Origin: Modestobacter sp. Leaf380 | Lineage (GTDB): Bacteria; Actinomycetota; Actinomycetes; Mycobacteriales; Geodermatophilaceae | Reading direction: 5' to 3' | DNA: 64,000 nucleotides | Assembly (NCBI RefSeq): GCF_001424485.1 | Contig: NZ_LMQC01000002.1 | Location: forward strand, 2,387 to 66,386 | Part shown: positions 23,196-38,385 of the stretch, piece after piece | Layout of the letters: the number at the start of each line of letters is the position of its first letter | Position numbering within the stretch: the stretch's first letter is position 1 | Notes under the pieces: generated by a model | Seen by the model: only the letters and a program-made list of their open reading frames with translations | What the model was told of the DNA's origin: nothing | Database searches by the model: none | Translations under genes and position numbers: made by a program

Positions 23196-24182
23196 TCAGC
23201 CCGCGGCCGCGAGCCGTCCGGCGGTCGTCCCGCAGCTGCCCCGGACGACCAGCTCGACGTCGGGGGGTCCTGCGCTCGGTGGTCGTACGGCCGGGCCGTG
23301 GAGGAGCCCGTCGACCAGGCGGGTGGCCGGCCCGGCCAGGTGGTGTCGGACGACGGTCAGCCCCGGTCGGCTGAACGCGGCGCCAGGGGCGTCGCCGCAG
23401 CTCACCAGGGCCACGTCCTCGGGCACCCGGACGCCCAGCCGACGGAGGTCGGACAGCAGGTGCCACGCCGTCCGGTCGCTCTCCGCCACGACGGCCGACG
23501 CACCCGACGTGGCCAGGGCGGTGGCGACCGTGGGGCCGGTCCCGGCTGGGTCCCGTCCGACGGTGACGACCCGGACCCGAGCCGTCGACGGACCGACGGT
23601 GGACCGGCGCAGCAGGGCCTGTGCCCGGGCCGCCTCCGGGTCCCCGACCACCACGTGGACGACCGCGTGCCCGACGGACCGCAGGTGCCGCACCGCGAGC
23701 ACCCCGGAGCTCGTCCACGTGTTGTGCTCGCCCTCCCAGTCGTGCGCTGACTGCAGGGGCACCGTCCCGGCTGCATCCCGCAGCCGCGGGAGGTCGACCT
23801 CCTGCGACGGGCACAGCAGGGCGATCCCGTCGACCTGCTGTGCGGCCAGCTCCTGCACTGCCCGGGTCAGGGAACCGGGGCACCCGTCGGGCACCGTGCG
23901 GACCACCAGGGCCCTCCCGGTCAGCCGGGTCGCGCGCTCGACGGCGGCCACCCACGTCGCCGACTCCGGGTCCAGTGGTCCACCCAGCACGACCCCGAGC
24001 GCGCCCGCCCGCCCGCTCGCCAGTGTTCGTGCCGCGCTCGAGGGTCGGTAGTCGAGTTCCTGCACCACCTGTTGGACCCGCGCCCGTGTCCCGGCAGAGA
24101 CGTAGCGGTGCCCCTGGACCACCCGGGTGACGGTCGCGCGGGACACCCCGGCCCTGCGGGCCACCTCCTCGATCGCGTTCAC
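23196..24182 (-). CDS. LacI family transcriptional regulator (first of two)
   Basis: 328 residues from a GTG at 24182. The HTH 'IEEVARRAGVSRATVTRVVQG' begins at residue 3, and the hinge 'YRPSSAARTLASG' ends near residue 57; a periplasmic-binding-protein-like ligand domain follows. An in-frame ATG at 24239 exists, but it would put the palindromic operator inside the coding sequence and add a non-homologous tail. No good ribosome site is seen. Divergent from the sugar-transport ATPase, with the operator at 24225-24240 between them. Its hinge and recognition helix differ from the second LacI protein, so the two may read different signals or sites. Confidence 0.85.
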   Translation of the reverse strand: MNAIEEVARRAGVSRATVTRVVQGHRYVSAGTRARVQQVVQELDYRPSSAARTLASGRAGALGVVLGGPLDPESATWVAAVERATRLTGRALVVRTVPDGCPGSLTRAVQELAAQQVDGIALLCPSQEVDLPRLRDAAGTVPLQSAHDWEGEHNTWTSSGVLAVRHLRSVGHAVVHVVVGDPEAARAQALLRRSTVGPSTARVRVVTVGRDPAGTGPTVATALATSGASAVVAESDRTAWHLLSDLRRLGVRVPEDVALVSCGDAPGAAFSRPGLTVVRHHLAGPATRLVDGLLHGPAVRPPSAGPPDVELVVRGSCGTTAGRLAAAG

Positions 24183-24224
24183 GCCGGGGACGGTGCTGCG
24201 ACGAGGGTCATGGACGCATCTTCG

Positions 24225-24240
24225 TGTTATCGGTAACATC
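24225..24240 (+). promoter_or_regulatory. LacI-type operator with embedded -10, upstream of the transport ATPase
   Basis: TGTTATCGGTAACATC; the first 14 bases are a near-perfect palindrome around a central CG, the usual LacI-family form. A promoter TGGACG (24211-24216), 17-base spacer, TAACAT (24234-24239) fits with its -10 inside the operator. The same 16-mer stands upstream of the first GH42 gene, and a one-base variant precedes the secreted propeller protein. Confidence 0.8.
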
Positions 24241-24271: not shown

Positions 24272-24317
24272 CGACCCGCACCGGGGGCACGACGTGCCCC
24301 GGGAGGAGACCCACCCG

Positions 24318-25391
<1,074 letters not shown>

Positions 25392-25473: not shown

Positions 25474-26526
25474 TCAGGCCCCCGGTGCCCGGGTCGTGGA
25501 CTCCCGCACCACCAGCGCGGACTGCAGCGAGGGTGTGGCCGGCACCTGTGTACCGGTGATGCGACCCAGCAGCTCGGCCACCGCGGCCCTGCCCTGGGCG
25601 GCGAAGTCCACGCGGACCGTGGTCAGCGGAGGGGTGAAGAACGCCGCCTCCGGGATGTCGTCGACGCCGGTGACGCTGACGTCACCGGGGACGGACAGGC
25701 CCCGCACCGTCAGGGCGCGCACCGCCCCCAGGGCCATCTGGTCGTTGGCCGCCACGACCGCCGTCGCACCCCCCGTGCCACCCAGCTGACCGATCGCGGC
25801 GTAGCCGGATGCTGCCGACCAGTCCCCGTGCACCAGTGCGACCGACTGCAGACCACGCCGCGCGACGGCCGACTCGTAGGCGCGGGCACGGTTGCGCGCG
25901 GCGGCCCACGTGGACGGTCCGGCGATGTGCACCAGGGACCGGTGGCCCAGGTCCGCCAGGTGGTCCACGAGGGCCGGCAGGCCGGTCGAGGACAGCTCGC
26001 TGGGTGCTCCCGAGCGGTCTTCGTCGGCCTCGGCGGCGATGAAGGCGGGCACCCGGAAGTCGGTGGCCTCCAGGGCCTCGGTCATCTCGTCGGTCGAGGC
26101 CAGCGCGAGCACCCCCGCGAGGTCGTGCTTGGCCACCAGCGCCAGAGCGCTGTCGATCGAGGTCCGGTCGGTCATGTCCAGGGTCACGATGTCGAGCAGG
26201 TACCCGGCCTCGCGGGCCGCGGCACTGGCTCCCTGGGCGATCCTGCTGGGACCGACCTGGTCGATCTCGTGGGTGAGGGCCCCCAGCCGATGGGACCGGC
26301 CGGTGGTCAGCGACCGGGCGGTCAGGTTCGGGCGGTAGTCCAGCGCCTCCAGGGCCTCGGTGACGCGCTCCCGGGTCTCGGGTCTGATGCCCTGGTAGCC
26401 CTTGAGCAGCCGGCTGACCGTCTGTCCCGAGACGCCGGCCATGCGGGCCACGTCGTAGATGGTGGCCGGACGGGCTTCGGACACCGCGGCGTCCGGTGAC
26501 TGCGGGGTCTGACCCGACGCGGTCAT
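25474..26526 (-). CDS. LacI family transcriptional regulator (second of two)
   Basis: 350 residues. The HTH 'TIYDVARMAGVSGQTVSRLLKG' begins near residue 22 after a disordered lead, and the hinge is 'YRPNLTARSLTTGR'. The ligand domain ends with the usual 'GDVSVTGVDDIPEAAFFTPPLTTVRVDFAAQG' block. AGGAGAG precedes the ATG at 26526; an upstream in-frame start at 26571 lacks such a site. Divergent from the GH42 operon, with two operator-like palindromes between. It is the best candidate repressor of the beta-galactoside regulon, and the degenerate site nearer its own start suggests autoregulation. Confidence 0.9.
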   Translation of the reverse strand: MTASGQTPQSPDAAVSEARPATIYDVARMAGVSGQTVSRLLKGYQGIRPETRERVTEALEALDYRPNLTARSLTTGRSHRLGALTHEIDQVGPSRIAQGASAAAREAGYLLDIVTLDMTDRTSIDSALALVAKHDLAGVLALASTDEMTEALEATDFRVPAFIAAEADEDRSGAPSELSSTGLPALVDHLADLGHRSLVHIAGPSTWAAARNRARAYESAVARRGLQSVALVHGDWSAASGYAAIGQLGGTGGATAVVAANDQMALGAVRALTVRGLSVPGDVSVTGVDDIPEAAFFTPPLTTVRVDFAAQGRAAVAELLGRITGTQVPATPSLQSALVVRESTTRAPGA

Positions 26527-26626
26527 GTGCTGGCTCTCCTGCCTGTCCCCGCGTGACTCGCGGTGGCGCACCGGTCGTCCGCCCGCTGCTGGACGGTCCG
26601 TGCGTCAGCTCACCACGTCTGGTGCA

Positions 26627-26640
26627 CGTTACCGATGACA
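26627..26640 (-). promoter_or_regulatory. Degenerate second operator copy
   Basis: CGTTACCGATGACA on the plus strand is TGTCATCGGTAACG on the minus strand, two mismatches from the island's consensus operator. Its centre lies 32 bases (about three helical turns) from that of the strong site at 26659. It faces the LacI gene, suggesting cooperative binding or autoregulation. Confidence 0.6.
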
Positions 26641-26658
26641 TTCGCCAACCACAGCTCT

Positions 26659-26674
26659 TGTTATCGGTAACATC
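26659..26674 (+). promoter_or_regulatory. LacI-type operator of the GH42/transport operon
   Basis: TGTTATCGGTAACATC, identical over 16 bases to the site at 24225. TAACAT (26668-26673) would be the -10; the -35 is weak. It is 54 bases upstream of the GH42 ATG. Confidence 0.8.
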
Positions 26675-26679
26675 CCGTG

Positions 26680-26701
26680 CGAGTGTGGCGCGGCACACTC
26701 G
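26680..26701 (+). other. 5' leader hairpin of the GH42 operon
   Basis: CGAGTGTG (26680-26687) pairs exactly with CACACTCG (26694-26701) over a 6-base loop. It begins 7 bases after the predicted -10 and so would cap the 5' end of the mRNA. Confidence 0.45.
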
Positions 26702-26727
26702 CCTCGCACCGACGGAGAACCACCTCG

Positions 26728-28827
26728 ATGAGCTCGCTGCCCACCTCGCACGCCCCCAGCCGGGTCCTCTTCGGCGCGGCCTACTACGCGGAGTACCAGC
26801 AGACCGACCGGCTGGAGCAGGACCTCGACCTGATGGCGGCCGCCGGTTTCACGGTGATCCGGGTCGGTGAGTCGGTGTGGTCGACGTGGGAACCCCGCGA
26901 CGGCGAGTTCGACCTGGAGTGGCTGCTGCCGGTGCTCGACGGGGCCCACGCCCGGGGGATCAGCGTCGTCCTGGGCACACCGACCTACGCCGTCCCCCCG
27001 TGGCTGCAGCAGGCCCACCCCGAGATCGCCGCCGAGCGCAGCACCGGGGAGCGGATCCCGTGGGGCGCCCGCCAGGAGGTGGACTACACCCACCCGGCGT
27101 TCCTGTTCCACGCCGAACGGGTCGTCCGCGCCGTGCTGCGCCGCTACGCCACCCACCCCGCGGTGATCGGCTTCCAGGTCGACAACGAGCCGGGTCTGGA
27201 GCTGTTCCACAACCAGGGCGTCTTCAGCCGGTTCGTGCGTCGGCTCAAGGCCGAGTTCGGCGACGTCGAGACCCTCAACCGGGAGTGGGGCCTCGCCTAC
27301 TGGTCACACCGCCTGGACGACTGGTCGGAGCTGTGGCGCCCGGAGGGCAACAGCTTCCCGCAGTACGACCTGGCCTGGCGCCGGTTCCAGGCCGAGCTCA
27401 CCACCGAGTTCATCGGCTGGCAGGCCGCCCTGGTGGGTGAGTACAAGGCGCCCGGCCAGTTCGTCACCACGTGCCTGCAGTACCCCCGCCGGGGCCTGGA
27501 CGACGAGCAGCTGTTCGCCGGTCTCGACATCGCCGCGGGCAACCCCTACTACGGGATGCAGGACCAGCTGGCGATCGGCCAGGAGCACGAGCCGCTGGAC
27601 TACTGGGTCACCAGCGGGGTGCCGGGTCTCTTCCGCCAGGCCGACCGCATGTGGGCCTCCAAGCAGGCGCGGTACCTCATCACCGAGACCAACGCCCAGG
27701 GCATCGGGGCCGCGGACACGACGTTCCCGCCCTACCCCGGTCAGCTCAAGCAGGCGGCGTACGCGTTCGTCTCCCGCGGCGCGGCGATGATCGAGTACTG
27801 GCAGTGGAACACGCTGCCCTACGGAGCCGAGACCTACTGGGGCGGGATCCTCCCGCACAGCCTCCAGCCGGGCCGGGTGTACCGGGAGATCGCCGAGATC
27901 GGTGCCGAGCTGCAGGCGGTCGGCACGACCCTGGACGGCTACGAGCCCGACGCCGATGTCGCGGTCCTGTGGTCGAACCCCAGCCGGTTCGCCCTGCAGT
28001 TCATGCCGCCCTTCCGCACCGACGGGGTGGCCGACGACGCTGCCTACGAGAAGATCGTCGACGCCTTCCACCGCGGTGTCGTCGACTCCGGTCGACAGGC
28101 CCGGCTGCTGCACACCGGTCAGGCCCTGGCCCTGGGAGCGCAGGCGCTGGTCGACCGCTTCCCGGTGCTGGTCGCCGCCGGGGTGTACGTCGCCACCGAC
28201 GACGAGCTGGACCTGCTGGCCGAGTACGCCCGGCTGGGCGGTCACCTCGTCCTGGGTCCCCGCACCGGCTACGCCGACGAGCAGGCCCGGGCCCGTGCCG
28301 CTGTGTCGCCGGCGCGGCTCGCAGCGGCGGCCGGCGTCCACTACGCGGAGTTCAGCAACCTGCTCGCCGCCGTCCCCGTGCACGCGGTCGGCCCCGACCT
28401 CCAGGCCACCGGTCACGCCCGGGACTGGGTCGACGGGCTGGTGCTCGACGGCGCCACGCCCCTCGCCTCCTACGACCACCCGCACTTCGGCACCTTCCCG
28501 GCCGTGACCACGCACGCCCACGGTCGGGGTCGGGTCACCGTGGTCGGTTGCCTGCCCTCCCCGGACCTGGCGGCCGCCGTCCTCGCCTGGGCCCAGCCCG
28601 CCCCGGTGGCTGCGGCCCTGGGCGCCGCAGGGAGCCCCCAGGTGACCGTGTCGTCGGGCCGACTGCCGGACGGACGGCGGGCCTGGTTCGTCTTCAACTG
28701 GGGCTGGGCCCCCACCGATCTGGTCCTGAGCTCTTCCGTCCAGGACCTGACGACCGGGAGCCTGCACACCAGCGGCTCCGCGATCGCCCTCGATGCCTGG
28801 TCGACGCACGCCCTGGTCGACCAGTGA
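26728..28827 (+). CDS. GH42 family beta-galactosidase (divergent member)
   Basis: 699 residues with no signal peptide, so cytoplasmic. A TIM barrel carries the GH42 acid/base at Glu154 ('VIGFQVDNEPG') and the nucleophile at Glu320 ('RYLITETNAQG'). A trimerisation-like domain (about 395-600) and a small C-terminal beta domain ending 'RRAWFVFNWGWAP' follow. It should split imported beta-galactosides. Its opening 'FGAAYYAEYQQTDRLEQDL' differs from the classical 'GGDYNPEQW' of the second GH42 here, so the two enzymes probably prefer different linkages or chain lengths. GGAG precedes the ATG. First gene of a five-gene operon. Confidence 0.9.
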   Translation: MSSLPTSHAPSRVLFGAAYYAEYQQTDRLEQDLDLMAAAGFTVIRVGESVWSTWEPRDGEFDLEWLLPVLDGAHARGISVVLGTPTYAVPPWLQQAHPEIAAERSTGERIPWGARQEVDYTHPAFLFHAERVVRAVLRRYATHPAVIGFQVDNEPGLELFHNQGVFSRFVRRLKAEFGDVETLNREWGLAYWSHRLDDWSELWRPEGNSFPQYDLAWRRFQAELTTEFIGWQAALVGEYKAPGQFVTTCLQYPRRGLDDEQLFAGLDIAAGNPYYGMQDQLAIGQEHEPLDYWVTSGVPGLFRQADRMWASKQARYLITETNAQGIGAADTTFPPYPGQLKQAAYAFVSRGAAMIEYWQWNTLPYGAETYWGGILPHSLQPGRVYREIAEIGAELQAVGTTLDGYEPDADVAVLWSNPSRFALQFMPPFRTDGVADDAAYEKIVDAFHRGVVDSGRQARLLHTGQALALGAQALVDRFPVLVAAGVYVATDDELDLLAEYARLGGHLVLGPRTGYADEQARARAAVSPARLAAAAGVHYAEFSNLLAAVPVHAVGPDLQATGHARDWVDGLVLDGATPLASYDHPHFGTFPAVTTHAHGRGRVTVVGCLPSPDLAAAVLAWAQPAPVAAALGAAGSPQVTVSSGRLPDGRRAWFVFNWGWAPTDLVLSSSVQDLTTGSLHTSGSAIALDAWSTHALVDQ

Positions 28828-28877: not shown

Positions 28878-30233
28878 ATGAAGAAGGCACCGCGCACCGC
28901 ACTGGCCATGGCGACCAGCGCCGCGATCCTGGGCATGACGCTCGCGGGATGTTCCTCCGGTGGCGGGGAGGACGACACCGCAGGCTCCGAGCCGGTCTCC
29001 CAGGCCGACATCGACGAGGCGCTGCAGACCCCGACCGAGCTGACGTTCTGGACCTGGGTGCCCGACATCGAGGACGAGGTGGCCCTCTTCGAGGCGGCGT
29101 ACCCCGCCATCGACGTCACCGTCGAGAACGTCGGCCAGGGCCTGGACCACTACCAGAAGGTGCGCACGGCCCTCGAGGCCGGCGACGGCGCCCCCGACGT
29201 CATCCAGGTCGAGTACCAGTACATCCCCTCCTTCACCCTCACCGACTCGTTGCTGGACCTGACCCCCTACGGGGCCGCGGACATCAGCGGCGACTACGTC
29301 GACTGGGCCTGGAACCAGGTCTCCTCCGACGAGGGCATCTGGGCGATCCCGCAGGACATCGGCCCGATGGGCAACCTCTACCGGTCCGACATCATGGCCC
29401 AGGCCGGCGTCACCGAGCCCCCGGCCACCTACGCCGACTACGCCACCGCGGCCGAGCAGGTCCGCAGTGCCACCGGCAGCTACATCTCCAACCTGCCGAG
29501 CAACGACCCGGCCCAGGTCACCGGTCTGCTCTGGCAGGCCGGCGTCCGGCCGTGGAGCTGGGACGGCGACCAGACGGTCTCCATCGACGTCAACAGCCCC
29601 GAGGCGCAGGAGGTCATGACCTACTGGCAGGACCTGATCGACCGCGACCTGGTCGGGACCGATGCCGACTTCAACGACGCCTTCTACCAGGGCCTGTCGA
29701 CCGGCACCTACGCCGGCTGGCTGACCGCGGCCTGGGGCCCGATCTTCCTGCAGGGCACGGCCGAGGCGACCTCGGGCCAGTGGTCGGCAGCCCCGCTGCC
29801 GCAGTGGGAGGAGGGCCAGGAGGTCTCCGGCAACTGGGGCGGGTCCACCGACGCCGTGCTGTCCACCACGGAGAACCCGATCGCCGCGGCGGCCCTGGCG
29901 CAGTTCATCAACCACGACCCCGAGTCGACGGCGCTCTTCGCCAACCAGCAGTTCCTCTTCCCGGCCAGCACCGAGCTGCTCGCCGACGAGTCCTTCACCG
30001 GCTCCGAGGTCGCGTTCTTCGGTGGTCAGAAGGTGAACGAGCTCTTCGCCGGCATCGCCGAGACGGTGGACACCGACTTCACCTGGCTGCCCTTCATGGA
30101 GTTCGTCTACTCCTCGTTCAACGAGACCGTCGGCACCGCCATCGGTGACCGCGGCGACCTCGTCGGCGCCCTCGACGACTGGCAGGCCCAGATCGTCCGC
30201 TACGCCGAGGACCAGGGCTTCACCGTCGAGTAA
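28878..30233 (+). CDS. CUT1 ABC transporter sugar-binding lipoprotein
   Basis: 451 residues. A lipoprotein signal (MKKAPRTALAMATSAAILGM) ends in the lipobox LAGC with the lipidated cysteine at 25. The mature part is a family 1 solute-binding protein ('LTFWTWVPDIEDEVALFEAAYPAIDV', 'YQKVRTALEAGDGAPDVIQVEYQYIPSF'). It captures a sugar, probably a beta-galacto-oligosaccharide given its operon, outside the membrane and delivers it to the two permeases that follow. A stem-loop lies between it and the permeases. An in-frame extension upstream overlapping the GH42 gene is spurious. Confidence 0.93.
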   Translation: MKKAPRTALAMATSAAILGMTLAGCSSGGGEDDTAGSEPVSQADIDEALQTPTELTFWTWVPDIEDEVALFEAAYPAIDVTVENVGQGLDHYQKVRTALEAGDGAPDVIQVEYQYIPSFTLTDSLLDLTPYGAADISGDYVDWAWNQVSSDEGIWAIPQDIGPMGNLYRSDIMAQAGVTEPPATYADYATAAEQVRSATGSYISNLPSNDPAQVTGLLWQAGVRPWSWDGDQTVSIDVNSPEAQEVMTYWQDLIDRDLVGTDADFNDAFYQGLSTGTYAGWLTAAWGPIFLQGTAEATSGQWSAAPLPQWEEGQEVSGNWGGSTDAVLSTTENPIAAAALAQFINHDPESTALFANQQFLFPASTELLADESFTGSEVAFFGGQKVNELFAGIAETVDTDFTWLPFMEFVYSSFNETVGTAIGDRGDLVGALDDWQAQIVRYAEDQGFTVE

Positions 30234-30301: not shown

Positions 30302-31228
30302 ATGGCGAGCACCACCACGACGCACCGACCCACCGCGACCAGGCGGCGCAAGCAGGCTGCGGCCGCCTACCTGTTCATCGCACCGTTCTTCCTGGTCTTC
30401 ACCACGATGCTGGTGGTCCCGCTGGGCTACTCCCTGTACCTGAGCCTCTTCCAGGACCGGCTCATCGGCGGGACGTCCTTCGTGGGGCTGGACAACTACG
30501 TCCAGGCCCTCACGGACTCGGCGTTCTTCGGCGGGCTGGGACGCATGGCGGTGTTCCTCGTCGTCCAGGTGCCGATCATGCTCGGGGTGGCCCTGTTCCT
30601 GGCCCTGGCGCTGGACAGCGGTCGCGCCCGAGGCTCCAAGGCGCTGCGGCTGGTCTACTTCGTGCCCTACGCCGTCCCCGGCGTCGTCGCCACCCTCATG
30701 TGGGGCTACCTGTACGGCCGCGACTTCGGCCCGATCGCCCAGCTGGCCCGGGCCGTGGGTCTGGACACCCCGACCTTCCTGGACTCCGGCAGCATCCTCG
30801 GCTCGATGATGAACATCGTCACCTGGGAGTACGTCGGCTACAACATGATCATCATGTACGCCGCGCTGCGGTCGATCCCGACCGAGCTCTACGAGGCCGC
30901 CGAGATGGACGGTGCCAGCCAGGCCCGCATCGCCTGGAGCATCAAGATCCCCGCCATCCGCCCGGCGATCCTGCTGACGGTCATCTTCTCGGTGATCGGG
31001 ACCTTCCAGCTCTTCAACGAGCCCAGCCTCCTGGACACCATCGCGCCCAACGCGATCTCCAACGCCTTCACCCCGAACTTCTACGCGTACAACCTCGCCT
31101 TCGTGAACCAGGACGTGAACTACGCAGCCGCGATCGCCTTCCTCCTCGGGCTCTTCATCGCGGTCGTGTCCTACGTCGTCCAACTGGGCTCCGCACGCGG
31201 GGAGCGCAAGCAGGAGAGCTCCCGATGA
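30302..31228 (+). CDS. CUT1 ABC permease (MalF type)
   Basis: 308 residues, six hydrophobic helices after a basic N-terminus. The first helix is 'AAAYLFIAPFFLVFTTMLVVPLGYSLY'. The EAA loop that contacts the ATPase is near 197 ('YEAAEMDGASQARIAWSIKIPAIRP'). It forms half of the transmembrane channel for the sugar caught by the preceding lipoprotein. Its stop overlaps the start of the second permease (ATGA). Confidence 0.93.
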   Translation: MASTTTTHRPTATRRRKQAAAAYLFIAPFFLVFTTMLVVPLGYSLYLSLFQDRLIGGTSFVGLDNYVQALTDSAFFGGLGRMAVFLVVQVPIMLGVALFLALALDSGRARGSKALRLVYFVPYAVPGVVATLMWGYLYGRDFGPIAQLARAVGLDTPTFLDSGSILGSMMNIVTWEYVGYNMIIMYAALRSIPTELYEAAEMDGASQARIAWSIKIPAIRPAILLTVIFSVIGTFQLFNEPSLLDTIAPNAISNAFTPNFYAYNLAFVNQDVNYAAAIAFLLGLFIAVVSYVVQLGSARGERKQESSR

Positions 31229-32142
31229 CCACCACGTTGCTCCCGCCCGTGGAACGCCCCACGGCACCCCCGGCACGACGACGGCGCAACCCGCGCGACC
31301 GGCGCAGCACCCCGCTGACGGTCCTGCTGTGGCTCTGTGCCGCCTACTTCCTGCTGCCCCTGGTCTGGCTGGTCATCGCCAGCACCAAGGACAACGCGGA
31401 CCTGTTCTCCACGTTCGGGCTCTGGTTCGGCGAGCGGTTCTCCCTCTGGGACAACCTGGTGTCGGTGTTCACCAACCGCGACGGCATCTACGGCCGGTGG
31501 GCGCTGAACACCGTCTTCTACGCGCTGGCCAGCGGTGGCGGTGCGGCCCTGCTGTCCACGATGGCCGGCTACGCCTTCGCCAAGTACCGGTTCCCGGGCT
31601 CGCGGGCCCTGTTCAGCGTCACCCTCGGCGCGATCATGATCCCGCTGACGGCGCTGGCCCTGCCGACCTACCTGCTGTTCAACACCTTCGGGATCACCGA
31701 CACCCCGTGGGCAGTCATCCTGCCCTCGCTGGTCAGCCCGTTCGGGGTCTACCTGATGCGCGTCTACGCAGCAGACGCCGTCCCGGACTCGCTGATCGAG
31801 GCGGCCCGGGTCGACGGGGCCGGGGAGTTCCGCATCTTCTGGCAGGTCAGCCTGCGGCTGCTCGGGCCCGGCGTGGTCACGGTGTTCCTCTTCGCGCTGG
31901 TCGCCACCTGGAACAACTACTTCCTGCCGCTGATCATGCTCAACCGTTCCGAGCTCTACCCCCTCACCGTCGGGCTGGCCCAGCAGCAGCTGGCCAGCGC
32001 CCAGGGGGGCGGTGGCTCCCAGGCCCTGTTCTCGACAGTGATCACCGGCTCCCTGGTGAGCATCGTGCCGCTGGTCGTGGCCTTCCTCTTCCTGCAGCGC
32101 TACTGGCAGTCGGGTCTGGCGGCCGGGTCGGTCAAGCAGTGA
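31225..32142 (+). CDS. CUT1 ABC permease (MalG type)
   Basis: 305 residues, six helices. It has the MalG-type opening ('PLTVLLWLCAAYFLLPLVWLVIAS') and an EAA loop near 192 ('IEAARVDGAGEFRIFWQVSLRLLGP'). It pairs with the MalF-type subunit. Start overlaps the previous stop by four bases (31225-31228), and its own stop overlaps the second GH42 gene in a GTGA (32139-32142), so three consecutive genes are translationally coupled. Confidence 0.93.
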   Translation: MTTTLLPPVERPTAPPARRRRNPRDRRSTPLTVLLWLCAAYFLLPLVWLVIASTKDNADLFSTFGLWFGERFSLWDNLVSVFTNRDGIYGRWALNTVFYALASGGGAALLSTMAGYAFAKYRFPGSRALFSVTLGAIMIPLTALALPTYLLFNTFGITDTPWAVILPSLVSPFGVYLMRVYAADAVPDSLIEAARVDGAGEFRIFWQVSLRLLGPGVVTVFLFALVATWNNYFLPLIMLNRSELYPLTVGLAQQQLASAQGGGGSQALFSTVITGSLVSIVPLVVAFLFLQRYWQSGLAAGSVKQ

Positions 32143-34085
32143 TCGGCGGCCACCGGTTCCTCTACGGCGGGGACTACAACCCCGAGCAGTGGCCCGAGCC
32201 CGTGTGGACCGACGACGTCGCCAGGATGCGCGAGGCGGGTGTCACCACGGCCACCGTGGGGGTGTTCTCCTGGGCCGACCTGCAGCCGCGTCAGGGCGCC
32301 TTCGAGTTCGGCTGGCTGGACCGCGTGCTCGACCTGCTGCACGCCGGCGGCATCGGTGTCGACCTGGCCACCGCGACGGCGTCCCCGCCGCCCTGGGCCG
32401 GAACGGGGCACCCGGACCTCTACGCCGTCGACGAGCGTGGCGCCCGGTACTGGCACGGCAGCCGGCAGCACTACGCGCCCACGTCGGTGCGGTACCGCCG
32501 CCTGGCGGCCGAGCTGGTCCACGCCATGGCCGAGCGCTACGTCGACCACCCCGCCGTCCAGATGTGGCACGTGAACAACGAGTACGGCTGCCACGTGGCA
32601 CTGGACCACTCGGCGTCCGCCGAACGGGCCTTCCGCGAGTGGCTGCAGGACCGGTACCTCACCATCGGCGGCCTCAACGACGCGTGGGGAACCTCCTTCT
32701 GGTCCCAGCGCTACGGCACCTTCGACGAGGTCACGACCCCCCGGCACGCGCCCTACAGTCGCAACCCCGCCCAGGTCCTGGACTTCCGCCGGTTCTCCTC
32801 CGACGCGCTGCTGGAGTGCTACCTGGCCGAGCGGGACGTCCTCCGGGCGGCCGGTGCCATCCAGCCGATCACCACGAACTTCATCGGGTTCAACAAGAAC
32901 GTCGACTACCGCACCTGGGCGCCTGAGATCGACGTCGTCAGCGACGACTGCTACCCCGACCCCGCCCACCCCGACGGGTACCGGCACGGCGCCTTCGAAC
33001 GCGACCTGGTCCGTGGGCTGAGCCCCGATCGCCCCTGGCTGCTGATGGAGCAGGCCAGCAGTGCGGTCAACTGGCGCCCCCGCAACGCGCCCAAGTCACC
33101 GGGACAGATGGCGGCCTGGTCGATGCAGTCGATCGCTCGGGGTGCCGACGGCATCCTGTTCTTCCAGTGGCGGCAGTCCCGGGCCGGTGCCGAGAAGTTC
33201 CACTCCGCGATGCTGCCGCACGCCGGGACGGGGACCCGCACCTGGCGGGAGGTGTGTGCCCTCGGTGCCCGCCTGCGCGAGCTCCCCGCGCTGCCAGCTG
33301 CCGCACCCGCGCCGGTGGCGCTGGTCCACGAGTGGGAGAACTGGTGGGCGCTGGAGGGCACGGACCACCCGGCCGACCTGGACCACCAGCAGGTGCTCAC
33401 CGCCTGGCACCTGGCCACCCAGGACGAGCACCTGGCCTGCGACGTGACCGGGGCGGCGGGGCCGTTCGGGGACCGGCGGGTCGTCCTGGCCCCGGCGTTG
33501 TACCTGCTCCGCGCCGAGGCCGCCGCAGCCCTGGTCGCGTTCGTGACGGCGGGTGGGACGCTGGTGCTGACGTCCTTCAGCGACGTCGTCGACGAGTGCG
33601 ACCGCCTCCGTGAGGGCGGCTTCCTGACCCAGCTGCGCGACATCGCCGGCATCGAGGTCCTCGAGCACGCCGGTGTCCCCGACGACGCCGCCCGTGCCGT
33701 CGGGCAGCTCGACCTGACCCTGGGCGGGATCGTGGAGGACGTCGAGGCGCGGGAGGCGACCGTGCTCGCCCGCTTCACCGACGGGCCCTACGCCGGCGGC
33801 CCGGCCCTGACGCGGAAGACCCACGCCTCCGGCGGTTCGGTGGTCTACGCGGCGGGACAGCTCGACCGGGCGTCGGCCCGGGCGGTCCTGCAGCTCGTGG
33901 TCCCCCAGGACGCCCGGGACCCCGACTTCGAGGGTCTCCCCGAGGACGTCGAGGCCGTGCGCCGTGGCGGGGTCGTATTCGTGGTCAACCACGCCGCCCA
34001 CCCGGTCCACGTCCGGGTCGGCGGCACCGACCTGGACCTCGAGTCGCAGGAGGTCGCGGTCCTCGACGGCACCCGGCGGGTGTGA
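32139..34085 (+). CDS. GH42 beta-galactosidase (classical type)
   Basis: 648 residues, cytoplasmic. It opens with the family signature 'FLYGGDYNPEQW'. The acid/base is Glu148 ('MWHVNNEYGCH'), and the nucleophile is Glu304 ('LLMEQASS'). The barrel is followed by the trimerisation domain ('PVALVHEWENWWALEG') and the small C-terminal beta domain. It hydrolyses terminal beta-galactose from imported oligosaccharides, complementing the divergent GH42 at the head of the operon. The GTG at 32139 is fixed by the GTGA overlap with the permease gene. Confidence 0.95.
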   Translation: MIGGHRFLYGGDYNPEQWPEPVWTDDVARMREAGVTTATVGVFSWADLQPRQGAFEFGWLDRVLDLLHAGGIGVDLATATASPPPWAGTGHPDLYAVDERGARYWHGSRQHYAPTSVRYRRLAAELVHAMAERYVDHPAVQMWHVNNEYGCHVALDHSASAERAFREWLQDRYLTIGGLNDAWGTSFWSQRYGTFDEVTTPRHAPYSRNPAQVLDFRRFSSDALLECYLAERDVLRAAGAIQPITTNFIGFNKNVDYRTWAPEIDVVSDDCYPDPAHPDGYRHGAFERDLVRGLSPDRPWLLMEQASSAVNWRPRNAPKSPGQMAAWSMQSIARGADGILFFQWRQSRAGAEKFHSAMLPHAGTGTRTWREVCALGARLRELPALPAAAPAPVALVHEWENWWALEGTDHPADLDHQQVLTAWHLATQDEHLACDVTGAAGPFGDRRVVLAPALYLLRAEAAAALVAFVTAGGTLVLTSFSDVVDECDRLREGGFLTQLRDIAGIEVLEHAGVPDDAARAVGQLDLTLGGIVEDVEAREATVLARFTDGPYAGGPALTRKTHASGGSVVYAAGQLDRASARAVLQLVVPQDARDPDFEGLPEDVEAVRRGGVVFVVNHAAHPVHVRVGGTDLDLESQEVAVLDGTRRV

Positions 34086-34297: not shown

Positions 34298-34651
34298 AGA
34301 ACTGTCGTCCGCACGGTCGGGTCGTCCTCTGGCCGCGCGGCTGCGGGTGTCGGAGCCGCGTGACGACGACGGCACCGAACCCGGGGTGGGCAGCGGCACC
34401 GGATCCCGATCGTCCCGGCACCCTCCGTGCTGCCGCTGTCAGGCGTTCCCGCTGGTCCCACGAGCGTGACGGAGGGGACGGTCCTGGGCGAGCGCGTGGC
34501 CTGGGCAACGCCGACGGGGACGCCGTGCTCGATGATCGGGGTCGGTGGGCTGGCCGTCCACCGACCTCCCCGGATCGGATGGGCCCGGTACGACAGCAGG
34601 GCCGGGCGTGAACCGCCCGGCCCTGCTGTCCTCACGAGGTGACCGGTCGGA
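34298..34651. other. Gene-poor stretch between operon end and the secreted protein gene
   Basis: About 350 bases with no convincing gene on either strand. The short open frames show no family motifs and no ribosome sites. Its only clear element is the 17-bp terminator at 34592-34630. Confidence 0.6.
34592..34630. terminator. Bidirectional terminator, perfect 17-bp stem
   Basis: Arms 34592-34608 and 34614-34630 with a 5-base loop, between the rightward GH42 operon and the leftward secreted-protein gene. Confidence 0.9.
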
Positions 34652-37600
34652 TCACCGCACCGTGACCGTGCGGCTCACCGTCAGGCCGTCCGCTGTCGCA
34701 GCGGTCAAGGGTGCCGTGCCGAGGGGTACGTCCGCGGGGATCCGCACGGTCGTGCGGGCGGTCCCGTTGACGTCGGTCACGGCCGTGCCCAGGACCCGGT
34801 CTCCGAGGGTGTAGGTCACGTCGGCGTACCGGCTGAACCCGGCCACCGAGATCGTGAGGGTCCCACCGGGGGCGGCCGCGGAGCCGGCGCGCACCGACAC
34901 CGCAGGGTCCGGGTTGATCGTCACCGTCGCGGTGCGGACCGTCGAGACGTTCCCCGCCCGGTCCACGGCCCGGGTGGAGACCACGTGGTCCCCGACCGTG
35001 GAGATGACGACAGCCGCGGTGTACGGCTGCCACGCGCTGCCGTCGACCCGGTACTCGAGGGCGGCGACCCCGGAGTGGCCGTCCGTCGCCGTCGCGGACA
35101 CCGTGATCGGGTTCCTCGGCGTACCGATGGTGACGTTCGGTGCCCGGGTGGCCGTCGCGGCGGGCAGGGTGCGGTCCACCTTCACCACCGTCTGGGCCTG
35201 GGAGCCGGCCACCGTCTCCCCCCCGGCGACCAGTCGGTGGTCGATGAGGGTGCTCCCGTTCTTCGACACGGTCAGGGAGGTGGTGTAGGTGCGCCACGTC
35301 CCCTGGTCGATCCGGTACTGGACACGCTGCCCGGCCGGAGCAGTGAGGGCGACCAGCACCGGCTCCTGGTACCAGCCGTCGGCGGAGGCCTGGTCTGCCG
35401 AGGTGATGCGCACGTCCGCCGTGGTGGCCGGGGGAGCGACGGTCAGCACGACCTCGCGGGTGGCCTCGGTGTTGCCGGCGACGTCGCTGGCCCGGTACTG
35501 CAGCCGGTGCGCCCCGGTGGCCGTGACCGCGATGCCGTCGGCGGGCACTGCTGTCCACGCGCCACCGTCGAGGGCGTACTGGACGGCACCCACGCCGGAG
35601 CCCGAGTCCGCCGCCGTGACCCGCGCCGTGATGGTCGACCCGGCTTGCGCCGTCCCGGATGCCGGGTCGGTCGCGACGCTGCTGACCGGTGCTGTGCGGT
35701 CCACCCGCACCTCCAGCGAGCCTTCAGAGCCGGTGACGGGGGAGCCCCCGACGGAGGCCCGGTACTGGAGCGTCGTCACCCCCTCCGTGGTGACGACGAC
35801 CGGACCGGTCACTGTCTGCCACTCACCGGTGGCGGCCAGCCGGTACTGCGCCGAGGCCGTCGAGGGTGACGGCGTCAGGGCCACCGAGACGTCTCCCCGG
35901 AACCACCCGGCCTCGTTCGCCGGCGACGCCGACGACGGGACGGCGGTCACGGAGACGTCGGCGACCTGCACGGTGTCCCGCACGAGCGGGCTGGCGTCGA
36001 AGGACACCGAGATGGTGGTCTCCCCACGCCCGGTGTAGGACGCCGGGAGCACGAGCGTGGCTCGCTGCTCGGCATCGAGGGTGACCGAGCCCAGCGGCGT
36101 CGGGGACCCGCCTCCCGCCGGGTGGGCGAAGACGCGGCCCACGGTCCCGGCACGGGAGTCGACACCGGTGCGTGCGACCGGGGTTGCGTCGATCGTGATC
36201 GTCGAGCCCGGCAACACCGACTGTTCGGCGACCAGGTCGGACGACGGCGTCCCTGCCGCGAGCGCGGCGGCCGAGGGTGCCACGGGGACCAGGAGCCACT
36301 CCTGCTCGTCGTCGGCGTTGCCGCCTCCGGTCACCGGGGGCTGCAAGACCGGCGTCCCGTTCGAGACGCCGACCACCAGCTGGGGGTTCACGACGGACTG
36401 GATGCGGACGTGCCCGTCGCTGCTGGGCACCAGCGTCCAGGTGCCGCCGGCCCGGTCGTCGACCCACTGGGCGAGGCGCTGACCCGGGGTGGCGTTGCCG
36501 GTCCAGATCGAGGCCTCGCGACCACCGGACCCGTTGAGGAACGTGACTGCCCCACCGGCCTCGGGGACGACGTGCCAGGACTGGGTCGCGGAGTCAGCCG
36601 CGGACCCCGACGCCTCGAGCCGGATGTCGGGACGGTCGGCGTTGCCGCGGTCGGCGTCGTTCGTGCTGTCGCCGGTGCCCCAGACCTGACCGGTGCGGCG
36701 GTTGACGACCTCGTAGTAGGACCCGACAGAACTGCCGAGATCGACCTCGCCGTAGCGGATCGTGGAACCTGCGGTCGCCCCGCCCCAGACGCCCTGGAGC
36801 ACCACGATGCGGCCGGTGTTCGAGACGTACTGCATGGTCCGGCTGTAGCCCGAACCCAGGGTCGTCCGGTAGCGCGTCCACACGCCGTCGCTGCGACCGC
36901 TCGCGTTCACCCAGATGTCGCCGTTGCCGTCGGCGTTGTAGGTGATGCGGCCGTCGGGGAGGACCTCGAGGACGGGGCTGCCCCCGTTCTGCAACTGGCC
37001 CGACCCGGCGTCCGTCGGGAGGTCGCTGATGTTCCCGCCGGCGTCCCCGCTGCCGAACCGGAAGTCCAGCGGGCTGTCCGCGAACTTGTAGTGGGCGATG
37101 TTGCCCCCGCCGAAGTACTCGAACGTCATCATCCACCGGCCATCGGTCGTCGGGACGACCGTCGTCATGCCCGGCCGTCCGCCACCGATCGACACGTCAC
37201 CGGGGGCGCCGAACGTCGTGCCCGAGACGTCCAGCACGGGCTCGCTCCACGACCCGGTGCCGTCCCAGGTCCGGTGCGCCAGGATCTGTGCCCCGGTGTC
37301 CTGGCCGGTGTCGTTGTCCGGCCGCAGGGTGGGCACCCCGGTGACAGCGTCGTACCCCGAGTAGTCGTTCTCGTCGGAGTAGTAGGCGACGAGTCGGCCG
37401 TCGTGGACGAGCAGGTGCGGCTCCCACACGGGGTCGATCTGCCGAGCGGTGTTGGCGGCAGCGATGTTCTGGCCGATGGCCCCGGCGCTGCCACCCTGCC
37501 AGCCACCCCGGGCGATGATGTCCTCGAAGGACCAGTCCGCGCCCTCGTTCGTGCTCGAGTACAGCGCGATGGCCAGGTCGCGGCGGTCTCCGTCGTTGGC

Positions 37601-38119
37601 GGGCACCCAGTTCGGGTCGGCGGCCTTGCGCTCGGTGTAGTACTCGTCCTGCCCGGAGACCACCGTGGCCAGGAGCAGCGTCCCGGCGTCCAGTTCACCG
37701 ACGTCCTCAGGCAGGACGTACAGGTAGGGGTTGGTCCAGTTGCTGGTGTAGGGGTCCATCGCCGGGTCGTCGCTCATCTCGGCAGGCGAGGCCACGGTCG
37801 TCAGCGGCTGCCAGGAGCTGCCGTTGTCGTCGCTCTTGTAGAGCGGCATGGTCTGGCCGACAGCGCCGTCGTTCCCGGCGGTCACCGTCGACAGCTCGAA
37901 CGCCGCCACCAGCCGACCGCTGGGCAACTCGGCGCTCTTGGGGTAGATGGCGCAGTTGCCCCGGCCCTTGAGGCACTCGTTGCCCCCGAGTTCGTACATC
38001 ACGCCACCGGTCGGGGCGTACGCCCGGGCAGTGGGTGGATCGGCCACCGCCACGACCGTCATCGCGGTCAGCGCTGCTGCCACCGCGCCGGCTGCTCTCA
38101 GGGACCTGCGTCTGTGCAC
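34652..38119 (-). CDS. Large secreted sialidase-like beta-propeller protein with lectin and Ig-like repeats
   Basis: 1155 residues. The GTG at 38119 is chosen because GGAG lies 5 bases upstream and it begins a signal peptide (MHRRRSLRAA..., cleavage probably after ARAYA at 35). Residues about 38-465 form a BNR/sialidase-like propeller with two Asp-boxes (SDDNGSSW at 96-103, STNEGADW at 189-196). About 466-613 is a ricin-type lectin-like region with QxW-like repeats (QSW at 513-515, EQEW). The remainder is bacterial Ig/OmpL47-like repeats with alternating 'YRVDGSAWQPY', 'DRAGN' and similar. There is no sortase motif or membrane anchor, so it is probably released. The shared operator ties it to the GH42 genes, so it probably binds or cuts an extracellular galactose-containing glycan; catalytic residues are not identified. 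Confidence 0.85.
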   Translation of the reverse strand: MHRRRSLRAAGAVAAALTAMTVVAVADPPTARAYAPTGGVMYELGGNECLKGRGNCAIYPKSAELPSGRLVAAFELSTVTAGNDGAVGQTMPLYKSDDNGSSWQPLTTVASPAEMSDDPAMDPYTSNWTNPYLYVLPEDVGELDAGTLLLATVVSGQDEYYTERKAADPNWVPANDGDRRDLAIALYSSTNEGADWSFEDIIARGGWQGGSAGAIGQNIAAANTARQIDPVWEPHLLVHDGRLVAYYSDENDYSGYDAVTGVPTLRPDNDTGQDTGAQILAHRTWDGTGSWSEPVLDVSGTTFGAPGDVSIGGGRPGMTTVVPTTDGRWMMTFEYFGGGNIAHYKFADSPLDFRFGSGDAGGNISDLPTDAGSGQLQNGGSPVLEVLPDGRITYNADGNGDIWVNASGRSDGVWTRYRTTLGSGYSRTMQYVSNTGRIVVLQGVWGGATAGSTIRYGEVDLGSSVGSYYEVVNRRTGQVWGTGDSTNDADRGNADRPDIRLEASGSAADSATQSWHVVPEAGGAVTFLNGSGGREASIWTGNATPGQRLAQWVDDRAGGTWTLVPSSDGHVRIQSVVNPQLVVGVSNGTPVLQPPVTGGGNADDEQEWLLVPVAPSAAALAAGTPSSDLVAEQSVLPGSTITIDATPVARTGVDSRAGTVGRVFAHPAGGGSPTPLGSVTLDAEQRATLVLPASYTGRGETTISVSFDASPLVRDTVQVADVSVTAVPSSASPANEAGWFRGDVSVALTPSPSTASAQYRLAATGEWQTVTGPVVVTTEGVTTLQYRASVGGSPVTGSEGSLEVRVDRTAPVSSVATDPASGTAQAGSTITARVTAADSGSGVGAVQYALDGGAWTAVPADGIAVTATGAHRLQYRASDVAGNTEATREVVLTVAPPATTADVRITSADQASADGWYQEPVLVALTAPAGQRVQYRIDQGTWRTYTTSLTVSKNGSTLIDHRLVAGGETVAGSQAQTVVKVDRTLPAATATRAPNVTIGTPRNPITVSATATDGHSGVAALEYRVDGSAWQPYTAAVVISTVGDHVVSTRAVDRAGNVSTVRTATVTINPDPAVSVRAGSAAAPGGTLTISVAGFSRYADVTYTLGDRVLGTAVTDVNGTARTTVRIPADVPLGTAPLTAATADGLTVSRTVTVR

Positions 38120-38356: not shown

Positions 38357-38385
38357 GATGTTATCGATAACACAGAAGGGGTCAA
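38357..38385 (-). promoter_or_regulatory. Promoter-operator of the secreted propeller gene
   Basis: On the minus strand: TTGACC (38385-38380), a 16-base spacer, then TAACAT, with a perfect 14-bp palindrome TGTTATCGATAACA at 38359-38372 overlapping the -10. It is one base from the sites at 24225 and 26659 and is followed by the same ATC. The -35 overlaps the stop of the upstream methyltransferase gene. Confidence 0.75.

Follow-up and report, generated by a model that had tools for sequence, protein, structure and literature searches.

Exo-1,5-alpha-L-arabinanases of family GH93, such as Abnx of Penicillium chrysogenum (3A71/3A72) and Arb93A of Fusarium graminearum (2W5N/2W5O), rely on the catalytic residues E170, E242 and Y337 (PMC11813348). 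Proteins annotated as GH93 are also listed in Streptomyces, namely SCAB_77441 of S. scabiei, which carries a CBM13 domain (PMC4567563), and SACTE_5629 (PMC12772271); the GH93-CBM13 module pair is therefore not new. In Bifidobacterium, GH39 GAfase/AAfase loci encode a secreted exo-disaccharidase, a LacI regulator, a solute-binding protein (SBP), two permeases and a cytosolic glycosidase that splits an Arap-Ara or Gal-Ara disaccharide (Arap, arabinopyranose; PMC10688797). In the alpha-L-arabinopyranosidase BlArap42B (5XB7), Trp358 replaces a His and fills the space of the galactose C6-OH (PMC8106489). Here we analysed a gene for a secreted propeller protein, located at 34652-38119 on the minus strand of a 64,000-nucleotide stretch of Modestobacter sp. 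Leaf380 (contig NZ_LMQC01000002.1; the whole stretch is called the window below). The protein has the homology, fold and catalytic residues of GH93, and its gene shares an operator with a GH42-ABC operon, lies in a conserved locus and co-occurs with the GH42 gene. We propose, at a rough probability of 45%, that it is a secreted GH93-kind exo-hydrolase whose disaccharide product is imported and split by the first GH42 enzyme of the operon, GH42a.

A propeller of the GH93 kind

When the protein was compared with solved structures by phmmer, Penicillium Abnx 3A71 matched at 9.7e-14 and Fusarium Arb93A weakly. A profile of 35 family members matched 3A71 (2.4e-29), 2YDT (6.9e-18), 2W5N (7.5e-18) and 2YDP (7.8e-17), and below E 0.01 returned GH93 entries only, plus the trefoil 3PG0; a miniGq chain, 9UAN, listed at E 0.017 was taken for chance. 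A Pfam scan of the protein gave no propeller family above cut-off (BNR_2, 0.02). Residues 34-645 were modelled with AlphaFold2 (predicted local distance difference test, pLDDT, 85.7; predicted template modelling score, pTM, 0.86). With this model, Foldseek placed six GH93 rows on top and gave lower scores to the GH43 enzymes and sialidases below them. VIA-align scored GH93 structures at Z 41.6-41.9 over 338-344 aligned residues (root-mean-square deviation, rmsd, 2.5-2.9; best case 2W5O, Z 41.9, rmsd 2.5, 343 aligned); the entries after these, sialidases, reached Z 28.3. Residues E233, E334 and Y425 align with the catalytic E, E and Y of GH93, and each is kept in 80/80 members.

The initial annotation, which had recognised no catalytic set in the propeller, suggested a new glycoside hydrolase or lyase family or a lectin, and advised structure prediction and search; carried out here, that search led to GH93, whose sequence, fold and catalytic residues are all present, and neither the missing catalytic set nor the new family is supported. 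Judged from sequence and model, the protein is very probably a catalytic GH93-type enzyme. A GH33 sialidase was rejected, as the profile search, taken to E 0.1, returned no GH33 chain and sialidases reached Z of about 28 against about 42 for GH93; nothing found in the analysis points to sialyl substrates. A lyase was likewise rejected, with no lyase among the profile-search matches and the GH93 catalytic set in place.

The features of the gene, in window coordinates, are as follows.

34652-38119, minus strand: GH93-like secreted enzyme gene; open reading frame with GTG start, 1155 amino acids; sequence and fold matches
38021-38119, minus strand: signal-peptide-like N terminus, residues 1-33, ending with ARA before Y at 33; by eye
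36722-38020, minus strand: propeller of GH93 type, residues 34-466; profile, model and structural alignment
37421-37423, minus strand: codon of E233, which aligns with GH93 catalytic Glu E170 (PMC11813348 numbering); alignment
37118-37120, minus strand: codon of E334, which aligns with GH93 catalytic Glu E242; alignment
36845-36847, minus strand: codon of Y425, which aligns with a Tyr of 3A71 taken for Y337 by spacing; alignment and spacing
36281-36721, minus strand: ricin-type beta-trefoil, CBM13-like, about residues 467-613; PF14200, 1e-8, two stretches
35966-36280, minus strand: Ig-like domain, residues 614-718; by eye, resembling a domain of relatives L009, L015 and L022
34904-35965, minus strand: four OmpL47/Ig-type repeats, residues 719-1072; NF047446, 1.4e-49, four stretches, boundaries by eye
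34655-34903, minus strand: last Ig-like domain, residues 1073-1155; by eye
34592-34630, no strand assigned: terminator-like hairpin without a T run, formed downstream of the stop codon by a perfect inverted repeat of 17 bp; repeat search

A GGAG sits 5 bases upstream of the GTG start, and the N termini of the relatives that were printed resemble the signal-peptide-like N terminus. The open reading frame, PF14200, NF047446 and inspection by eye bear out the architecture read earlier (signal peptide, propeller, ricin-like lectin and Ig/OmpL47 repeats). The two Asp-boxes noted with it are a canonical one, SDDNGSSW at residue 96, and a degenerate one, SSTNEGADW at 188 (the latter by eye). PF14200 scored above its cut-off in the trefoil, and QxW motifs at residues 478, 513 and 606 likewise indicate a CBM13/ricin-type trefoil.

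Relatives were collected in one scan of a genome collection, and the best 79 of 139 confirmed relatives, all actinobacterial and 58-66% identical, make up the 79 loci referred to below (individual loci carry L numbers). The scan started from query peptides, one of them spanning E334, so the conservation figures apply to near relatives. Propeller and ricin-type domain form the core common to the family (601-907 amino acids in the 79 loci). With residues 651-1155 as query and a threshold of 1e-10, the gene itself was matched in none of the 79 loci; the OmpL47 tail of the window protein is an addition to the common core. Isoptericola (L010) and Agromyces (L012) have tandem copies of the GH93-like gene.

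In the tree, the clade of these proteins was monophyletic (100/100) on a stem of 2.72 changes per column; its sister was a weaker group (94/96) holding fungal 3A71 and seven GH93 proteins of a family labelled f18, which we guess to be Streptomycetaceae. The tree has several long branches, and the fungal row joins L164 doubtfully. Across 396 genomes sampled from the phylum, any profile match was found in 8 and a full-length one in 3, the window's own included, and among the matches listed at least 14/200 f18 genomes had a full-length member (>700 bits), a partial member in G488 being uncounted. Presence in the window's own family is patchy, as 0/35 relatives from that family have a GH93-like gene; among 24 such relatives searched there was no close GH42a either, the 3 matches reaching only 28-29% identity. 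We guess that the host lives in soil.

A conserved locus and a shared operator

The GH93-like gene is accompanied by the same partners in most of its relatives. GH42a (at least 40% identity) lay within 10 kb in 65/79 loci, so that the earlier description of the gene as an orphan was rejected; the SBP (at least 30%) was found in 67/79, MalF and MalG permeases (at least 40%) in 66/79 each and LacI (at least 33%) in 66/79. Any other neighbour family reached at most 19/79 loci at the settings used, and GH42b-type genes were seen in only 4/79. The usual order in Streptomyces is LacI, SBP, MalF, MalG, GH42 and GH93-like; another, for example in L009 and L013, is LacI (opposite strand), GH42, MalF, MalG, SBP and GH93-like. 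In family f18, GH42a (E at most 1e-60) occurred in 13/14 genomes with a full-length member versus 1/14 without (Fisher p 9.8e-6), the controls being taken from the listed genomes rather than at random, namely the first 14 that lacked a match, most of them belonging to other genera. In one genus, g38, the counts were 9/9 genomes with a full-length member versus 3/19 without, these 19 being the g38 genomes among those listed without one; another 69 genomes of the search lay outside the listing.

Exact TGTTATCGNTAACA occurs genome-wide (4,764,686 bases, 25 contigs) only at window positions 24225, 26659 and 38359, all within the regulon, and the perfect operator claimed earlier for the GH93-like gene is indeed there, as TGTTATCGATAACA at 38359-38372. 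The window holds 4 operator sites with at most 3 mismatches against 0.12 expected, and the reversed control of TGTTATCGNTAACA had no match in the genome even with 1 mismatch. The genes and sites involved are listed below.

38359-38372, no strand assigned: perfect LacI-type operator TGTTATCGATAACA of the GH93-like gene; pattern scan, overlaps a promoter-like pair
26627-26672, no strand assigned: double operator before GH42a, 26627-26640 with 3 mismatches and 26659-26672 with 1
24225-24238, no strand assigned: operator between LacI1 and the ABC ATPase; pattern scan
23196-24239, minus strand: LacI1; domain scan
24294-25391, plus strand: ABC ATPase of MsmK/UgpC type; profile match
25474-26571, minus strand: LacI2, likely regulator of the regulon; domain scan, relatives at other loci
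26677-28827, plus strand: GH42a, in which W388 (hand-counted) aligns with Trp358 of BlArap42B; domain scan, alignment
28878-30233, plus strand: SBP; profile match, relatives
30302-31228, plus strand: MalF-type permease; domain and profile match
31225-32142, plus strand: MalG-type permease; profile match, relatives
32139-34085, plus strand: GH42b, with H355 (hand-counted) at the Trp358 position, a beta-galactosidase signature; alignment

The promoter-like pair TTGACC-16-TAACAT (38385-38358, minus strand; consensus match only) overlaps the operator at 38359. The operator at 24225-24238 falls within the longest LacI1 reading frame, so the true start of LacI1 is probably further downstream.

Operators of this kind recur elsewhere. 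Rathayibacter (L016) carries operator-like sites with 1-2 mismatches, two of them upstream of GH42 and a third in the interval from LacI to the GH93-like gene; Microbacterium (L009) has a double operator-like site with 32-bp spacing before GH42, as in the window, and Myceligenerans (L021) has two TGTTACCGGTAACA sites upstream of GH42. In Antribacter soli (L008), the GH93-like gene and the GH42-ABC operon are unlinked, on separate contigs; the sole exact operator match in that genome precedes the GH93-like gene, and among its five operator-like places (at most 1 mismatch) a one-mismatch TGTTACCGGTAACA precedes the GH42a-MalF-MalG-SBP operon, whose LacI is 69% identical to LacI2, the remaining three one-mismatch places reading TGTTAGCGCTAACA. 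Scans at this stringency gave matches in 4/5 named genomes, with none in Agromyces (L012); Isoptericola had two such places, and Microbacterium had others besides its L009 pair. As far as nucleotide patterns can tell, the specific shared operator almost certainly links the GH93-like gene and the GH42-ABC operon in one regulon. The view that the protein is the outside component of an importer system was upheld by the gene cluster conserved in most relatives and by the operator common to unlinked genes in Antribacter soli.

In the window's genome, the one further site found when a mismatch is allowed, TGTTAGCGCTAACA, lies on contig C3:12970-14638 (G000; L004, L087, L111) between another LacI gene and the L-ribulokinase gene araB, which thus has its own adjacent LacI and a related but different operator. 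Next to the locus of Microbacterium hydrocarbonoxydans (L009:2-3376) a GH59 (galactocerebrosidase-like) protein is encoded, and in Agromyces (L012:5116-6384) a D-arabinono-1,4-lactone oxidase-like gene lies directly 3' of GH42b.

The sugar probably released

We suggest that the CBM13-like lectin would hold the secreted, exo-acting GH93-type hydrolase close to its polymer, and that the enzyme would work on pectic or arabinogalactan side chains from their non-reducing ends, cutting an L-arabinosyl linkage to free disaccharides. A disaccharide capped by alpha-L-arabinopyranose (for example Arap-L-Ara) would enter through the co-regulated SBP-MalF-MalG importer and be split in the cytosol by GH42a, yielding L-arabinose for AraBAD; GH42b would handle beta-galactosides from the same side chains, and LacI2 would repress the whole set from TGTTATCGNTAACA operators. 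Catalysis, exo action, repression and L-arabinose as a product are what we infer, and the identity of the disaccharide is a guess; arabinose is the probable product, and the odds of Arap at its non-reducing end are a little short of even.

The choice of sugar follows from several observations. The nearest solved relative of GH42a was 5XB7 (2.8e-85; the next, 9e-45), and GH42a has Trp at the Trp358 position (ETYW), as do 62/62 scored orthologues, that is, those of the 65 GH42a loci whose alignments covered the signature; for the GH42a copies of L191-L210, a simple pattern gave Trp in 17/20 and no match in 3. GH42b carries the beta-galactosidase His there, so galactose may also be involved. The L-ribulokinase gene araB adjoins the GH93-like gene in 6/79 loci, and araB, araA and araD follow it in 4. 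A GH51-type gene was found in 0/79 loci; among other GH93 clades it was present in 2/12, both with an importer and ara genes: L108 has two GH51-type genes, an importer, araA, an araB-like gene and LacI, and L160 has SBP, MalF, MalG, a GH51-type gene and araBAD. In these two loci GH51 occupies the position held here by GH42, and we infer that the sugar at the non-reducing end of the imported disaccharide can be told from the cytosolic partner enzyme. As for possible substrates, alpha-L-Arap is found both terminally and internally in pectic galactans, on beta-1,4-galactan (PMC4226231, PMC6175989), and terminal arabinopyranoses on amaranth arabinans are named in the title of a paper cited by PMC6175989.

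Other GH93 relatives were seen beside further glycosidases. In L163 (G453 C135), one with the catalytic residues lies near LacI, permease-like and GH78-type alpha-L-rhamnosidase genes, possibly a route for a Rha-Ara disaccharide. The relative of L158 lies near a GH2-like gene; in L157, L158, L109 and L165, distant GH93-like proteins keep WEP and RPGM and may be another family, neither the second Glu nor the Tyr having been picked up in these four by simple patterns. In L161 (G479), a GH42a operon is followed by both GH93 kinds in tandem.

A number of points weigh against the proposal. The argument from the Trp signature is structural and concerns a single enzyme, the linkage to araB is limited to five Streptomyces and "Actinobacteria bacterium OV320", and the GH51 contrast comes from just 2/12 loci, a set in which L161 and L166 have GH42a and L159 has a GH42b-like gene. 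At the identities used, 8/79 loci lacked GH42 and importer genes, the flank being cut short in 4 of the 8. GH42a occurs without the clade in the 3/19 genomes of g38 counted above; in L166 (G469) the GH93 protein encoded after a GH42a operon belongs to another clade, and in L167 and L169 divergent clade members lie near GH3 and importer-like genes, not GH42. The strict operator TGTTANCGNTAACA was found in only 4/79 loci, and within 600 bases before the GH93-like gene in 1/79, so that another operator probably serves most loci, those of Streptomyces in particular. Because the clade stem is so long, specificity may have drifted from arabinan altogether, and the parts of the literature seen describe no alpha-L-Arap on L-arabinofuranose (L-Araf) with a defined linkage.

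The protein might instead be a plain exo-1,5-alpha-L-arabinanase like those of fungi, with arabinobiose imported, an arabinofuranosidase encoded elsewhere and GH42a serving a second side-chain sugar. GH93 sequence, fold and catalytic residues, the araBAD linkage in some loci and the listing of SCAB_77441 as an alpha-arabinanase (PMC4567563) are all consistent with it. The conserved cytosolic partner, however, is a GH42 with the arabinopyranosidase signature, the GH51-type genes of other GH93 clades are missing from the 79 loci, and the proteins form their own long-stemmed clade, in which two conserved inserts, around residues 155-180 and 205-228, have no counterpart in the fungal GH93 sequence; we regard this explanation as unlikely, if far from negligible.

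The initial annotation placed the protein in a galactoside system, and on that view an exo-enzyme acting on galactan or arabinogalactan protein would supply the importer with galactobiose or a similar beta-galactoside. The His of GH42b, a GH2 LacZ-type gene near the GH93-like gene in L068 and a GH35 gene near it in L067 fit such a role (clade members without GH42a have GH35, GH2 or GH43 genes in the locus, in L067, L068, L052 and L074), and Foldseek listed the GH43 exo-beta-1,3-galactanase 3VSF below the GH93 entries at a low TM-score. GH42b-type genes, however, are far rarer in the loci (4/79) than GH42a (65/79), GH93 homology points to L-arabinosyl linkages, and some loci have L-arabinose genes beside the GH93-like gene, no search having been made for galactose genes. 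This source of sugar thus seems improbable, and the GH42a Trp and adjacent araB indicate that the label "galactoside system" is probably better replaced by "arabinoside, perhaps with galactoside", the GH42b His keeping the second part.

About as improbable is a change of ring form, in which the enzyme would cut alpha-(1->4)-L-arabinopyranosyl linkages within the chains of pectic galactan and free Gal-Ara. These linkages are isomeric with 1->5-arabinofuranosyl ones, internal Arap is known in potato and apple galactans (PMC4226231, PMC6175989), and the idea would explain GH42a and GH42b side by side in the window as well as the long clade stem and conserved inserts; most loci, however, lack any GH42 other than the Trp type, an enzyme not expected to accept terminal galactose. 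Finally, a non-catalytic glycan-capturing lectin, which the ricin-type domain (PF14200) in 35/35 members scanned might suggest, is scarcely credible and was rejected, the catalytic residues being retained in 80/80 members.

The separate GH93 clade may have switched from arabinofuranose to pyranose-capped substrates, removing alpha-L-Arap-carrying or -containing disaccharides from pectic side chains; we offer this tentatively and think it rather unlikely. According to PMC4226231, a lack of enzymes that hydrolyse internal arabinopyranoses would limit degradation. With its links in gene cluster, operator and co-occurrence to an arabinopyranosidase-type GH42, the secreted enzyme is a ready candidate for studies of alpha-L-Arap structures. 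Were the switch real, the enzyme would open chains closed to ordinary exo-arabinanases and beta-galactosidases and, with the importer and the Trp-type GH42, would give actinobacteria an uptake route dedicated to alpha-L-arabinopyranosides. As a tentative rule, the product of GH93 relatives might be guessed from the cytosolic partner; relatives near GH51, GH42, GH78, GH3 and GH2 would then be an exo-disaccharidase family whose cap sugar can be read from that partner.

Comparison with known systems

In the literature searched, from which subscription papers were largely absent, we found no description of GH93 activity on arabinopyranosyl substrates; among the papers listed on GH93 with GH42, LacI, operon or Streptomyces, none was about the locus by title and abstract opening, and the term GH42 is absent from the main text of PMC4567563 and PMC12772271. 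BlArap42B, the best solved match of GH42a and bearer of the same Trp358 signature, has been described as acting on plant glycosides, ginsenoside Rb2 among them, and the passages of PMC8106489 consulted mention no secreted partner.

The window protein resembles the fungal GH93 exo-arabinanases in sequence, propeller fold, the E/E/Y set and the RPGM motif, being 32% identical to 3A71 over the columns of the sequence alignment and 28% in the structural alignment. It differs from them in its two conserved inserts, its CBM13-like domain, its Ig tail, its own deep clade and its GH42 cytosolic partner. The Bifidobacterium GH39 loci have the same plan as the window; whereas they use GH39 outside and GH36 inside the cell, the window has GH93 and GH42, and whereas their caps are beta-L-Arap or alpha-D-Gal (PMC10688797), the cap suggested for the window is alpha-L-Arap.

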